This document shows positions 30,971-61,500 of a stretch of DNA of 64,000 nucleotides, one piece after another. Location of the stretch: positions 5,491,383 to 5,555,382 of the forward strand of contig NC_049979.1 in NCBI RefSeq assembly GCF_000003815.2, in the 5' to 3' direction. The first letter of the stretch is position 1. Every line of letters starts with the position of its first letter. The position numbers and the translations under genes are program-made. The DNA comes from Branchiostoma floridae (Eukaryota; Chordata; Leptocardii; Amphioxiformes; Branchiostomatidae). A model generated the notes under the pieces. The model had not been told where the DNA came from and searched no databases. It saw only the letters and a program-made list of their open reading frames with translations.

Positions 30971-31185
30971 TATAGTAAGGTATTTTAGGCACAACCAGGG
31001 AGTACTTACTTCCAACGTTTCGATGTCTATCAGACACTATCATCAGGGTAGAATGACTAGAAACTACTTCTTGCTGCTACTTATAGTTTCCTGTCATTCT
31101 ACCCTGATGATGGTGTCTGATAGACATCGGAACGTTGGAAGTGTTAAAAAGTACTCCCTGGTTGTGCCTAAAGAACCTTACTATA
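30971..31185. mobile_element. Fold-back repeat with hammerhead-like cores (family B)
   Basis: The ends TATAGTAAGG and CCTTACTATA are inverted. Each arm carries CTGATGA, a GGTGTCT/AGACATC-type helix with GAT loop, and GAAAC or its variant: the minus-strand core is at 31046-31017 and the plus-strand core at 31104-31133. The tail reads ACTCCCTGGTTGTGCC. A sister copy is at 56285-56545. Confidence 0.75.
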
Positions 31186-49500: not shown

Positions 49501-52500
49501 GTGATGGGTCAAGGGGCGCACCATTTGTCAAAGTGATGTAACTTTTGTGGATTTAACTAATATCAATCTAAGATATAAAGATTTAATAGAAAGCCCAGAG
49601 AATTTTATTTCTTATGATCTTTTGTCTTCCCCAGAAATCAAGATGGGACTAAGTGAAGATCTGACGGTGGGGAAAGAAGACAAAAGGGGTAGGTTTGTCA
49701 GCTTCCCATCCTGTATTGATATAAAGGGTGACTTTTCTTGAGTTGCCTGTTGTACATTTGTGACAAGTTGAGCTGATACGAACTTCTCATTGTCAACAGC
49801 CTTTGGATGCTTTATTATAGTCCATTAGCTGATATTACAATTGACAAGCTTTACAATTGTATTCAGATAATCTTCCTGAACATAGTGTAAAAATACGAAC
49901 ATAACACATAACGTTACTAGTACATATAGTTATTTACAATTCATCGTAGTTATTCACAGTTTGTCTAATCAAGTTGAATTTTTCATATGTCTAAGGAGCT
50001 CCTGCCTAAATCTTACCCTACTAGCAGATTGTACATTGTTTGGCAAATCATTCCATGTAGATATGGGTCTATATATGAAAGTCTTCTTCAGGGCATTAGT
50101 TCTCGGTTTCGGTAGTCTGTAAGTGTGCTTGCTGGCATGATGTGTCTTGTAACTTTGTTGCTGTGTGACAGGAGACAAGTGGTTGTAGAGAACTGCTGGT
50201 TCTCTCTGCCTCTTCAATATACTAGTAGTCTCTCCATTCCTTCCTTAACCCTCCACATTCATCAAACATGAGTAGTTGCCCCAGAAAGATAATCTCCCGG
50301 ATAGTGCCCTAAGATGTAATAAGTCATGTTAAATCATGTGTGTGTTCCTGCCTCATGCATTAGCAAAATCAATCAATAAAGCCCTACATGATCCGCATTG
50401 CATGGTTAAACACTCAAACATGATTTAATTCTTTTATGGGATGTCTGAGAAACGGTTAGTACTGCCATGCACAGATGAACGAAAAGGCCTTGTGAACAAA
50501 TAAAGTACATGTTTTTATACCATTTACTCACAGCCTCTCCTTCACCTTCACTTGACAACTGTCTATCTTTTTAGTTTTAATTTCCCCATGAATCTACCAG
50601 ATCTCAATCAGGCACCATTCCATTATAATTTTGATTTCCTCCCCTATTTATTTTTATTGCTTAGTTATACACCCATTCCATTGTCATTTTGAAATACGAT
50701 CACCTCACGTATAATATTATGTGTTATATGATGTGCAGGGGGCTTTTAACTAGGATTTTATTATAGAGTGTCAAAATTTCTTGGTGAGTTGCGGCAAGTG
50801 ATATAGGCACAACTATTGTAGGGGGTCCAGGGGCATCCACCTCCATAGTGCAGATCAGAGTTTTTTGAGAATTTTAAGTTAAATTGGTGCATTCTAAGAT
50901 ATCCTGAAGGGCAAAATTACTGTCAGAGAGATCACAGTAGAAGGCTGTGACCACAAATGACCTCGTGGCATCCCTGGTCAATCAGAATTCCATGCTTGTC
51001 AGAGGATCTGCTCCCCAGTGCCTCCAATTTTTTGTTATTTTAAGAAAAGCTTGTCTAAATGACGCCTGGATGCATGCCTAAATAAGGGCCTGTTTCCATT
51101 GTAAATGAGGAAGTATTCTAACTTTGGTTAGTGAAAATTCTTATTTATTCTTTTCTTACTCAGATCCCTTCCCTTAAACAACAGAATTTTCAGCACCAAG
51201 GTCAAATAATGGTCTTTGAAAGTCAACAATCTTCTAAAGTTTTTTTTACACGAAAAATGCCCTGAACTGCCATGAAAGATTTATTTCAGAAATATGTATT
51301 CATGTTGTGATCTTTTGGAAACTGGACGTAATTCTAGCAAGACGCAAGAGTGGTAAGTGCGGTAATAGAAACATCCACTGTCTAGCATGTCATTAAAGTT
51401 AAGACAAGTTAGATGGCAAGATGTGCAGAAGCAATGACTCATCTTCACTTGTGGAAAGTCTCAGCATTTATCACTGTCAATTGTTTTGCAACAGGTCCTG
51501 CATTAAATGACCACATGTCCCGGAGACAGACTCCAAAATGCACTTGCCTGTCTCAATCTTTGAATCCTAAATATCTGCCAGAAGGGCCTGTCACATCCCT
51601 AGGTTCACACTGGTTCATATCTGTAGTCACTCATTCTCAGCCTCTCCATCACAGCATTACACTAACTACTAGGGCTGGGTACTGGTAGAAAGCTGTTCTT
51701 TCTCATTGGACCGGTCCAAACAAAACAGACCTGAAAAAAAGCGGTGGACCAGATGTTGGACCTATTGGAAAATGAACAGACTACATGATCAGGCATTCAC
51801 ATGTTTTGGGGCTTACCCTTCAAAGAGAATAACAAGGGTGAAGTAGAGTAGAATCTATATATAGTCATCTGTACAAAGTTTTACAGTCAATCGTACAGAG
51901 GCAGTTAGCCTTATAGGATTTTAAAATGCCTGAGGGAGTCAAATACTCCACAAAACAGATTTCTTTGTAGCAAAATGGACCATAGTTTTGCATTGAGTAT
52001 TGTCCATTCACAGGTTTTCACATACTGAATCAGGTCCATCCTCTGGACCTGAACCGTACCTGGACCTGAATTTCTGTACCTGTATACCCACCCCTACAAC
52101 TACACTAGTGGCAAAAGGCAGTTACTCAAGCAACTGGACATGATTTTGGAAACAGTCAGATGTTTCAGATTGCATCCACTATCTTTCGTCAATGACACTG
52201 AAGTGATCTGGTAGAAAGTGGTCTTTTATACCCTAAGTATGAATGCAAAAGAGCTAAGGACAATTTTGGATGTCCAATAGGAAACAAGGTAAGACAAAGT
52301 CAAGCTGAAGACATTTTCATTCCAATTAAAGGAAATAAAGGTAAGGTAAAGTCAACCTAAAGACAATTCAGACCGTTTCCATAACCATATCTAGTTGCTT
52401 GAGTAACTGCTTTTTGGCATATCTTATTACCTGGATGTCTAACCTTCATTGATGTAACTACACTAGCACTAGGCAGATTATTTTCCAGGGGCAGTTTGGC

Positions 52501-55500: not shown

Positions 55501-58500
55501 TAAATTTCTGTTGTTATACTTTGTGTTGTTTTAATGTGAACTCCAGGAAGACTAGTGTATGGAGATCTAAATAAACCAAACCAAACTGAACCAAACCTTA
55601 AGAACTTTCCAGTCACATGTTTGTCAGCTGGCTACCACACCTTACTTCTTGATCCATCCCTGCCCACGCTAATCCCCAAGACCCAACTTGTTTATATATA
55701 TTCTACATAGGAAGAGATATTCCCAAGTGATTAAGGCCTATAATTGTTATAGCAATTAGCGCTACGTTTTCAGTCACTCACCAAATGATTCACTAGGCTG
55801 CACACATGGTAGATAATTTCCTTTATTAAACACTAAGCCGTTCCTAGCCGTAAATCACGAACAGTTTTTCATTCCTGTTGCCTGCAGGTTATCACAGTCA
55901 TGCTCACGTCGATGAGTGTAGCTTTCACGAGAGCGTGGACTTGTCTGAGTTCGGACAGAGCAGGGTGCTGACAAATCATGAACAATGTTTTTTCCTGTTG
56001 CCCACAGGTTATCACAGTCATGCTCACGTCGATGAGTGTAGCTTTCACGAGAGCATGGATTTGTCTGAGTTTGGACAGAGCAGGGTGCTGACAAATCATG
56101 AACAATGTTTTTTCCTGTTGCCCACAGGTTATCACAGCCATGCTCACGTCGATGAGTGTAGCTTTCACGAGAGCGTGGACTTGTCTGAGTTTGGACAGAG
56201 CAGGGTGCTGACTATCCACCCGCCGCAGGGAGAGGTAAAACAGGTTCCACTTCATCCGTAAATAACCAGGTTGACAATTATTCATATAGTAAGATTCTTT
56301 GGGCACAACCAAGGAATACTTACTTCCAACGGTTCGATGTCTATCAGACACCATCATCAGGGTAGAATGATTGGAAACTACTTCTTGCTGCTATTTATAC
56401 CCGGTGTAGATGGCAATGCAGCAGCAAGAATATAAATAGCAGCAAGAAGTAGTTTCCAGTCATTCTACCCCGATGATGGTGTCTGATAGACATCGAAACA
56501 TTGGAAGCAAGTACTCCCTGGTTGTTCCCAAATAACCTTACTATATGAGGCTCCACTTTAAGTTTGGAAGTCCACTTTTCCCATTTTGACAAGTGCTAAT
56601 ATTTTCAATATAAAAGCACTTGGTGCAAAGTCTTGACATGTGATTGACAAGTATGATGTACAGTAACTTGTAAAATATGATAACATTGTATAATCTTAAC
56701 TTTCATGAATATTCATTTTGAAACTTTTCTGCAGGAAGAAATTTCTGCAGTAGAAATGTAAATTCCTGCAGGAAGAATATTTTCTGTAGGAATTTCTGCA
56801 GGATTAACCTCATTATTAGCAATGGTAGTAGGTTATTAAGTTCTTTTATGCATTTTATGTTGTTTTAAAACTGTTAAACCAAGCCAATTTTATTAGATAT
56901 CTATCAGACCACTATTCCGGTCAGTGACACTCCACCAGTGGATTATGAATGGAATTCTTGTCGTGGTTTGATGATCCTAGGAAACATGTTGAAAACTAGA
57001 CCTGGTGAAATGCTATTTCCTGCATTGTGAGAGAAATTTTGCTGGTAGACTCAGCTTGTTCAATGCCATCTGTTTTGGTGAAAAACTCCATAGCGGTTTC
57101 AGCAAACATAGGACTGAATGGGCAAAATTAAATGCTGGTTAGAACCCTGCACTCCACCAACATAGCTACACGAGACAAGTGGAGCTTGCACTCAACCAAG
57201 CGAAAGCACATCCAACTGGTTCAGTATTTCATCTGTCAAAGACAAATGATTATACATCCATCATTACATTCAGCATGTGTTTCGGGACAGGTAGATAGTA
57301 GACTACATACCAGGGTTCAAGCCAGCTTGGGATGTCCTCTGTGACGGACAAAAATTGACATGTAAAGATATTAATTTAACCAAGCTGAGTCTAACAGCAA
57401 AATGTGCCTTTCAAAATAAAGGAAATAGTCTTTCAGAGGGTCTAGATTTCATGCTTCCCGGACCCCTTTGGATTGTCACGCTTTTGATAGAATTTCCATT
57501 CAAAATCCAGGGGACAGAAAAAAATTCAGGCTGGGTAGAACGTTAACACTGCTACATACTTATGTGTGTTAACGAACCGTCATCCAGTGATTGAAGGAAA
57601 GCCTGCAATGGGAAATGAAGCAAGCCAGGGTTGATATAAATCAGATACTATCTAATCAGCACTTCACATTGGACAAGCTATAATTGTCTATTAGATTACA
57701 CAAATGGGTGATTAGAGACAAACACTAATAAAAGTCAATCAGAAGAGCTTTGCTGCTAATGATGTGACACTTAACATGTGCTATCATTAGCTACTAATTA
57801 GTTTTTTGAAATTAAATGATAGGATTTTGTTATCAATTTCAACATATGTCCCTGCTTGATATGTGTATCCGATTGGCAGGGAGTTTCATGCCATACGCAG
57901 TACATCTTCTGAGTCAATATGGCTGTCTCATTAATATTGATGACGCTGTAGCTACAAGACACCGTTCAGTTGATCATCTATGAGAAGTTGTTGTGGGAAG
58001 CAACATAGATGTAGGTTTCAAGGAACCTTCTTCAATGCAGTTCTGACTGGTTCATATTGTACTGCAGGACAGGTGTTGCTGCCCAAAGTTCAGATGCAGT
58101 CACAAAATGGCACTGTCAGAATTGCCCTGAAGAAGATGACACACAGTCACCGAAACGTTGGTGAGAAAAAAGCAATGTTTGTGCAAAAGGAGTCTCTTTA
58201 TTCAGTACTGTTAATAATACCTGTACGTATGTGGCTTTGTACAAAAAAGTCCCTAACTACACGCTCTAAAAACAAAACGTTTTCCACAGACAGTGGTGAC
58301 GTAAATCATGACGTAAGTAATATCTTTGCAAATCATGCTTCAGCTCCAGGGCCAAGAGAGATACGCTTTTTTTAGCAAAACAGCTGTCATCAGTTGTTGC
58401 TATCAGTCACAGCGTTCATCCCTGTATCATGGTCTGTCTAGTAGTGTTCTCTGTTTGACAGAAAAGAATGTAAGGAAGATGAAGTAATGAAATCCAAGCG

Positions 58501-61500
58501 TTCCTAATAGCACACTGCACATTTGCGAAAAATTGCATATGTTCATCATTAGCCTTAATCCATAGAACGTTTTGCTCAAAGCCATGTCATCTGAATGATT
58601 GCTATTAGATTAGCCTTAGGTACCAAAAACAGAGTTTTCTTTGTTGACAAAGTAATTTTTTATCAGGTTGCAATTTTCTTTATTTTTGTGAGATGGTTGT
58701 AAGTCAGAGCATTAATATGTAAGTCTTTTGATTATCCTTCACCATCATTCAGCTTGCAGGGCTTGAAATAACACCTGTATTAGCACATGCAGGTTACTGC
58801 AGGTAAAATTAGAACTGTGCAGGTATTTCTGGTGTCTACCCGCACCTAACCTGTTCTGGTCCATGGAATGGGTTTTTACTAACTGCATTGACTGTTACCA
58901 CCTATGTAGTATAAAAGTAATAATGGCAATGGTTTCTGAACTGATTTTAGTTAGATCATTACAATTCTAAGTGATGCGGGTATGCAGGAAAAGGTCTTTC
59001 GAGCCCTGGCTTGGCTTCAGTATATCTATAATTGCTTGTTCACCAAAAAGCAACTGGATATGGTTTTGGAAATGGTCAGATGTTTCAACAACTATCCATT
59101 GGTTTTTGTCAGTTACACTGAAGAGATCTTGTTGGTGAGGGTTTATATATCCTAGCTGCGATAGATCTCTCACATATCAATTCACAGCAATGATATATTA
59201 TATTATATATTATTAAACCCTCTCGAACAAGATCTCTTCAGTGTCACTGACGAAAACTACTGGATAGTAGTTGAAACGTCTGACCGTTTTGAAAACCATA
59301 TCCAACTACTTTTTTGCGTATCTTATTACCTGAATGTCTAACCTACATGTAAATGAAAATGAAATAATTACAGTCTGCGCAGTTTATTTTGTTCCAAAGG
59401 TACTTAAACAAGAGCTAAAAGACATAATGATAATCTCCAAGCAGATCCTAGTAGTATCAAAAGCTGCCAGAGGAGTGAGGCTAGGCCGGCTTAGGAGTGT
59501 GTTTCGATGGCAAATGGACACCTCTTGGCTGACTACACTCCTTGGCCAGTTTGGTACTATCTTAATGCCATTGTAGGATCTGCTTGGAGATTACATAATG
59601 AAGTTATAGGACCTGGTCTTAAAAACATGTAGAACTTGTCTGTTGTTTGTTCAGTTTCCATTGATAAAGTACCAGGCATCAGGAGACCTGCCTTCCCTGC
59701 TGCAACTTCGTCAGAGCTTCTACATTTTGTAACTGGAGTTCTGCTTCTCACCACTATATGTAAGCTGCAGAACTCCAGTTAGAAGCACTGGCAAAGGTGT
59801 CTGAGAGATATCAAAACGTAAGCAATGTAAGTACCTGGTTGTGTAAAGATAATTCTCTTATATCCTGTTGTTTGTACAGTTTCCGTTGATGAAGTACCAG
59901 GCATCAGGAGATCTGCCTTCCCTGCTGCCCTTCAGACTCTTCCCAACAGTCAACGACCAGGACAGCTCAAGGTCAGGCCCATTCCACTTACAAACCATTA
60001 ACCTCCCAGCTCTGGTCTCAATCAAACACTGTCAAACCCCGCTAAATACTTCTCAAGGGAAATTTGGACCTGTGCAGGTATTTCTGATGTCTACCTGCAC
60101 CTAACCTGCACTGGGCCATGTACTAGTACTGGGTTTTATACATGTATACAAAATGTAAATGTCTTAGCTGCATTGACTGTTAATTACAACTTATAAAATA
60201 TAAAAGAAAAATAGCAATTGTTCCTGAACAATTCAAGTATGATCCATATTTCCTTACTTCCATACTTCCAAAATTTGCCTGGTGCAGGTAATTTTCAATG
60301 TTACCTGCACCAGTGCAGGTATGCAGAAAAAAGTATTTCAAGTCCTGACTAACAAACCATTAACCTTCCAGCTCCGGTCTCAATCAAACACTGGCAAACC
60401 TCTCCTTAATACTTCTCAAGGGAAATACGTGCAGCTGCGTCAAAGGCTCAATAAGCCACAAAGTGCCCCTCGCTACTGTGGGTGAGGACGATAAAGGTTT
60501 AAGAGAGAGAAAGAGAAATATTGCCATTGACATTAAAACTCTTGCAGCACATGTACAAAAGGTTGAATTGTCGTTTTTTACAGTCAGTATTTCAACCTCT
60601 AACCAAGGAGGTTTTGATAAAACTTGACATTGCTCTAACTTGACATAGTGAAAAAGATTGAGTGACAAAATAACATCTAATTGTTTACAATAATTGATTA
60701 GTTATTACACAGAGAAACATTCACTACTGTACACAAATTACCCGTCCTGGTTCAGGAGCTCTACATGGTACGGTAATGCGCTGTTAGTGAAACGAGAAGT
60801 TCTACACCGGAAGTGAGAGAATTTGTCATTGTTTCTTAAGTCAGTAGTTACCTATTATGAGTAACCCCTCATCTAGTTGGAAGCCAATTACTGAATTTTT
60901 CAGAGTTGACGAGAATTCGTTTGGCCGGAATAGCTTCTCTATAATTCAGATTTGACTGATGAAGGGAATTGGTGTGGCAAAACAGCGCTGATGGAGTAGC
61001 TCGAAGATACAATTTGTCACGTATGACATCCTCGTAGGTCATCATACCTATTTTTGGGTTTTACAGTTATTTTTTTGGGTTTTACAGTTATCTTTTTGGG
61101 TTTTACAGTTATCTTTTGAGCTTTTCCATCCTGAGGTAGCCTTTTGGTGCTGAAATAGAAGTATTCATCATCGGATTTGGCAGCAAGAAGTGATTGAATC
61201 ACATAAGAGTCCTTCTAACCCGAGTCTACATGTTGAAGAATTAAGCAGCATGCCATTTATATATAGCAGTTCCCAATAAAGTTGTTTTCTGTAAGATTTC
61301 GTTTTTATGAATGGCAGTATCAAAATGCAGGTTCACCACTACTATGGAGGTTGTTGTGAGCACTTTGGAACTGATTTGGAAGATCTGCAGCATTCATCAC
61401 TAGCCTGGGTACTAGGTGTGGGTACCGGTACATTGTACCGGTACAAAACTGTTTATTCTTGTTGGACCAGTCCGGAAAAAAACGATTAGAAAATAAACAG

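Follow-up and report, generated by a model that had tools for sequence, protein, structure and literature searches.

The AP4M1 gene and its repeat array

The stretch of DNA analysed here, 64,000 nucleotides of Branchiostoma floridae contig NC_049979.1 (positions 5,491,383 to 5,555,382; hereafter the window), carries exons of a gene which its sequence matches identify as AP4M1. In a tblastn search using an approximate human AP4M1 sequence, exons were found on the + strand from 37009 to 63498, several of the matches being weak on their own, and a further exon was found just beyond the window (C1:5555385-5555591, profile positions 193-259). Exon boundaries were placed by eye. A 157-residue peptide, hand-spliced from the exon preceding the array described below, the exon of the array's third unit and four later exons, matched human AP-4 mu over residues 1-156 (E 1.4e-39) and, more weakly, AP-2 mu (1.3e-19), AP-1 mu (7.1e-15) and AP-3 mu (9.5e-4); its match to Pfam Adap_comp_sub had an E value of 1.1e-33. 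The gene name and the mu-homology domain proposed in the first-pass annotation of this DNA were thus borne out. A literature search in a limited collection returned nothing on AP4M1 in amphioxus, or on exon duplication, splice sites and tandem repeats in combination in Branchiostoma.

Tandem Repeats Finder (TRF) reported an array at 55852-56212 with a period of 120, 3.0 copies and 94% matches; its score of 643 is the highest of the 23 TRF rows in the window, the next being 636. The array consists of three head-to-tail units of 120/121 bp, every one of which runs from the last part of an AP4M1 intron through a strong 3' splice site into the exon, taking in its first 85 nt, in agreement with the annotation's description of three repeat units with acceptors. 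The features of the region are as follows; splice scores are to be read as ranks only.

49635..49688, + strand: upstream AP4M1 exon (tblastn), ending in KEDKR and the first base of a Gly codon; donor GT at 49689
55852..55972 (121 nt), + strand: unit 1, with the left intron edge, acceptor 1 and the first 85 nt of an exon copy
55886..55887, + strand: AG of acceptor 1, score 8.25
55965..55972, + strand: GTGCTGAC at the unit 1/2 junction, exon-derived and branch-site-like (YTNAY scan; putative function), its A 37 nt before exon start 2
55973..56092 (120 nt), + strand: unit 2, with an intron piece, acceptor 2 and a copy of the exon start with one V to M change
56006..56007, + strand: AG of acceptor 2, score 10.57
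56085-56092, + strand: GTGCTGAC at the unit 2/3 junction, likewise branch-site-like, its A 37 nt before exon start 3
56093..56212 (120 nt), + strand: unit 3, with an intron piece, acceptor 3 and the start of the authentic exon
56126..56127, + strand: AG of acceptor 3, score 10.57, predicted main site
56128..56234 (107 nt), + strand: authentic AP4M1 exon, phase-1 start; donor GT at 56235
59640..59703, + strand: second partial duplication in AP4M1, an acceptor copy (ending at 59654) with 49 nt of the next exon, followed by a stop (by eye)
59880..59971, + strand: next authentic AP4M1 exon (FPLMKYQASGDLPSLLPFRLFP...)

The three exon starts (55888, 56008 and 56128) are spaced exactly 120 nt apart. 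Every unit closes with GTGCTGAC, and units 2 and 3 start directly after it. The exon goes on past unit 3 only (TATCCACCCGCCGCAGGGAGAG followed by GTAAAA), and the exon end and donor (56234/56235) are therefore reached from unit 3 alone, both being absent from units 1 and 2. Depending on the acceptor chosen, the exon would measure 347, 227 or 107 nt. It starts in phase 1 and completes a glycine codon, within residues RGY that are also found in human mu4. The protein built from unit 3 (exon end TIHPPQGE) aligns to human mu4 without an insertion at the array site; immediately after RGY the window and human residues differ (HSHA vs GPGI), and the AP-2 mu alignment shown starts at query residue 14.

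When the window was compared with itself at a lag of 120 (every 7 bases, n=8,842), median identity was 26% and the 99th percentile 37.5%; within the array identity reached 97.5%, as against 55% at best elsewhere in the window. A chance origin of the repeat is excluded. The array sequence matches the 513-Mb assembly at one place only, and no microhomology was seen at its junctions when the flanks were inspected by eye.

Splice signals in the three units

Acceptors and donors were scored with approximate human frequencies, so that only the ranks of the scores given here are meaningful. The 11 other assigned acceptors of AP4M1 scored from -0.42 to 10.01, and among the 385 AGs of the preceding intron the 99th percentile was 5.25 and the best value 8.19. 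All three array acceptors are strong by this measure, and the score therefore cannot settle which of them is used. A YTNAY motif is present upstream of each of the three, and the CTGAC at the unit junctions is a good match to the branch-site consensus. At each unit's exon start CAG is followed by GTTATC. As a donor, CAGGTTATC scored -0.9 with the same matrix, under the 90th percentile (-0.43) of the 406 GTs in the preceding intron; the 12 scored donors of AP4M1 ranged from 1.51 to 6.15.

Differences among the units

In the intron parts, units 2 and 3 are identical over 35 nt, while unit 1 differs from both by 6 substitutions and 1 indel in 36 aligned columns (hand count), several of the changes being clustered. 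The annotation's 'nearly identical' overstates the likeness of unit 1 in its intron part; a 'recent' origin, as it suggested, fits units 2 and 3 and fits the intron edge of unit 1 less well. The polymorphism and splice variants that it also raised may exist. The exon parts have 4 variable sites, all of them transitions, with 3 differences between units 1 and 2, 3 between units 2 and 3, and 2 between units 1 and 3. A single change among the exon copies, the V to M in unit 2, is nonsynonymous, and among the units pN was 0.000-0.015 vs a pS of about 0.14.

Units 1 and 3 differ at 6 of 35 intron sites and, in the exon, by 2 synonymous (of about 14 such sites) and 0 nonsynonymous changes. Fisher tests, all post hoc and resting on only 4 variable exon sites, gave p 0.0076 for intron vs whole exon (6/35 vs 2/85; 0.059 if the clustered intron changes are counted as 4), p 0.0016 for intron vs nonsynonymous changes (62 sites entered, the site count being about 66) and p 0.053 for synonymous vs nonsynonymous changes; on the same few sites, if only transitions occur, finding 3 of 4 changes synonymous has P 0.13. 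Across 55888-56212, then, the intron part of units 1 and 3 has changed far more than the nonsynonymous sites, a pattern in which an edge effect of homogenisation and coding constraint are indistinguishable. Homogenisation of all but the left edge of the array would explain the quiet exon part, yet synonymous sites differ.

Other duplications in AP4M1 and its relatives

The second duplication within AP4M1 (59640-59703) is 94% identical over 64 nt to the acceptor and start of the next exon (59865-59928), and its acceptor scores 4.66 vs 1.79 for the authentic one (ranks only), though the copy runs into a stop. Local duplications in AP4M1 were found at junctions in 2/6 cases vs 0.75 expected, with no significant enrichment (P 0.17). 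TRF analysis of 19 stretches of 10 kb (183,754 called bases), taken at round coordinates on 5 contigs and hand-picked rather than random, yielded 16 arrays of period at least 40, covering 3.9% of bases; in five of them the period lay between 80 and 200 with 2.5 copies or more. By chance coverage without selection, arrays would be expected to cover about 0.95 of the 24 AP4M1 junctions placed within the window. By itself, the AP4M1 array looks ordinary for this genome.

At 12 exon loci of the AP-mu family TRF found no array at the matches; one array of period at least 40 (L032, 67 bp x 2.8) lies outside its match. Two AP-mu paralogues were considered as bearing similar boundary repeats and rejected, each being a pair of whole diverged exons. 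In an AP-2-like mu gene (C14:11957472-11957821, minus strand; L025) two adjacent, complete, homologous exons of 129 and 132 nt (SATGKSSIAIDDCTFHQCV..., AATPGKTSVAIDNCTFHQCV...) lie 47 nt apart. This pair, the Pfam counterpart (65-100) of the AP4M1 array exon (65-96), may represent mutually exclusive exons. A second candidate for mutually exclusive exons, judged from sequence, is found in an AP-1-like mu gene (C15:6158376-6158658, + strand; L030), in which adjacent homologous exons (SLNGHVLQSEIVGAIKMRVFL..., VSVNGVVLRSEIVGGIKMRIYL...) are about 39-40 nt apart and the first has an unusual acceptor (ACGAG). A further pair of Adap_comp_sub matches about 24 kb downstream of AP4M1 (C1:5579820-5583207, minus strand) resembles delta-COP in its residues.

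Two other features of the window were recorded. An inverted repeat at 56282-56548, which begins 48 nt beyond the AP4M1 exon, has 118-nt arms that are 92% complementary, and 24 nt of its sequence are found again, on both strands, near 31022-31105; it is probably a hairpin-type mobile element. An open frame at 18356-18664 matches cystine-knot families (E 4e-5 for Pfam DAN; E 6e-4 for Glycoprotein hormone, a match that does not reach that family's cut-off) and is possibly a glycoprotein-hormone-like exon.

Interpretation of the array

Tandem repeats that span intron-exon boundaries are known in lancelet genes and have been termed mirages (PMC3087553), a class that the first-pass annotation did not name. 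The AP4M1 array is a minisatellite-like tandem repeat (three units, 94% matches, score 643) lying across an intron-exon boundary of a protein-coding gene (acceptors ending at 55887, 56007 and 56127), and we consider it very likely that it is such a mirage, a short duplication of the boundary in which units 1 and 2 are spliced out and acceptor 3 is mainly used. A piece of roughly 120 bp, comprising 35-36 nt of intron end and 85 nt of exon start, would have been duplicated head to tail, and one copy would then have been duplicated again; we infer this order from the fact that the intron parts of units 2 and 3 are identical. The first two units would now be decoys: splicing of the pre-mRNA would mostly join the donor at 49689 with acceptor 3, the units between would be removed as intron, and the protein would be of ordinary length. 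Acceptor 3 is favored here as the only one of the three to be followed directly by a complete exon of the usual size (107 nt vs 227 or 347) with its donor. Regular splicing to this site appears most likely by analogy with the published report on BflGb6, a lancelet globin gene of like build (PMC3087553). Four observations count against this reading. The upstream acceptors show no clear decay (8.25 and 10.57 vs 10.57, compared by rank); units 1 and 3 are quieter in the exon than in the intron, which is not expected of neutral decoys unless conversion homogenises them; local duplications, as given above, are not significantly enriched at AP4M1 junctions; and the matches at the 12 AP-mu exon loci bear no TRF array.

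The principal alternative is that acceptors 1 or 2 are used in some mRNAs, so that mu4 would gain 40 or 80 residues where this exon begins. The array is indeed in frame and free of stops, as had been claimed together with a unit length divisible by three, and the protein read from acceptor 1 contains two extra blocks of 40 residues, each with the intron-derived NHEQCFFLLPTG. An open frame as a sign of coding was nevertheless rejected, and with it the annotation's step from open frame to protein extension: the exon part of the units owes its open frame to the coding sequence of which it is a copy, a repeat period has a 1-in-3 chance of being divisible by three, and among intron stretches of 36 nt taken at random 49% lack a stop in a given frame. 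Apart from the frame, the three strong acceptors, each with its upstream YTNAY, would allow such isoforms, as would the scarcity of nonsynonymous differences; the blocks would moreover be inserted immediately ahead of the last, complete copy, at a place where the window departs from the human residues after RGY and that precedes the start of the AP-2 mu alignment shown. On the other side, the low pN rests on the 4 transitions for which P was 0.13 and p, between units 1 and 3, 0.053; a repeated block in a conserved fold would probably be harmful; and published lancelet arrays of like anatomy are reported as leaving splicing regular (PMC3087553, PMC3902484). Such isoforms are therefore unlikely, and the protein-extension idea has little support. 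The fuller version, in which the extra units are translated into isoforms with one or two additional 40-residue blocks under protein-level constraint and unit number varies between haplotypes, we regard as very unlikely; if it held, a trafficking adaptor would differ in length among individuals.

That the assembly has expanded one real unit, or stitched two haplotypes together, is highly improbable. Short tandem arrays are error-prone and N runs occur elsewhere in the window; the draft version of a BflGb6 haplotype was called aberrantly assembled (PMC3087553), and unit numbers in lancelet PGBD5 vary by assembly version (PMC3902484). Against an error stand the private differences of the units, the single genome match to the array and the fact that the PGBD5 arrays were, as reported, upheld by reexamined and new reads (PMC3902484).

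It is extremely doubtful that the 120-nt pieces are removed as small introns or stepwise, in the manner of the Rogers model of intron gain. The CAG followed by GTTATC supplies each unit with an AG/GT, potato RdRp is a reported case of intron gain by tandem duplication (PMC4974935), and mirages have been proposed as a source of gained introns (PMC3087553); the CAGGTTATC donor, however, ranks under the 90th percentile of the GTs in the preceding intron and below all scored AP4M1 donors, and AG/GT mini-introns were rejected for want of a usable 5' splice site. A complete tandem duplication with mutually exclusive exons was rejected, since units 1 and 2 both end without a donor.

Comparison with known systems

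The array as a mirage is best compared with BflGb6, whose repeat likewise joins an intron 3' end and the 5' part of an exon (exon 2) in tandem, with AG/GT in the units; these number 6 and 3 in two haplotypes, and BflGb9 also has a mirage (PMC3087553). In BflGb6 some units are near-identical and boundary units less homogenised (PMC3087553); in AP4M1 the intron parts fit this pattern, units 2 and 3 being identical and unit 1 divergent, and the exon parts, where each pair of units has 2-3 differences, do not. The AP4M1 array differs from BflGb6 in its 120-bp unit (vs 150-160 bp), which is a multiple of three and open in frame, and in having three units in the one assembly analysed. Adh3 data and the authors' own RT-PCR are said to suggest regular splicing despite mirages (PMC3087553).

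As a control, TRF was run on 4-kb regions surrounding the 9 listed globin matches, which are the best candidates and not all globin genes. An array of period at least 30 was found at 1/9, and none at the other 8/9 loci among these matches. The array, on C18, has 4.2 copies of 158 bp, contains CAG followed by GTTACTCCGTGACTACCCAGAG (CAG/GTTACTCC) and overlaps the start of the globin match; from its unit length and content, we take it to be that of BflGb6.

Lancelet PGBD5 has 2x60 and 3x108 bp arrays at splice sites, with 7 and 6 units in another assembly version; the repeats entered a gene model as a 57-residue insertion, which the authors left out (PMC3902484). As in AP4M1, imperfect repeats (3x108 bp) lie over a splice site of a conserved protein; the 108-bp repeats abut the 5' splice site, whereas those of AP4M1 carry the 3' splice site (PMC3902484). 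In the potato RdRp case, the duplication is reported to have copied the parental junction's branch site, tract and 3' site (PMC4974935). The AP4M1 units resemble intron gain under the Rogers model in having a branch-site-like motif, a pyrimidine tract and a 3' splice site in the duplicated piece, and differ from it in having no credible donor by the score used. With tandem exon duplication and mutually exclusive exons they have a local exon copy in common; units 1 and 2, however, are incomplete, without exon end and donor.

The AP4M1 array is very likely a new example of a known lancelet repeat type, the mirage. Being in frame, stop-free and provided with three strong acceptors, it offers a clean natural test of how one of several near-identical 3' splice sites is selected, and of whether new exons or introns arise from arrays of this kind. 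With it, AP4M1 joins the short list of lancelet genes with duplicated splice boundaries, namely Adh3, the globins, TnC and PGBD5 (PMC3087553, PMC3902484), Adh and TnC being cited as further cases in PMC3902484.
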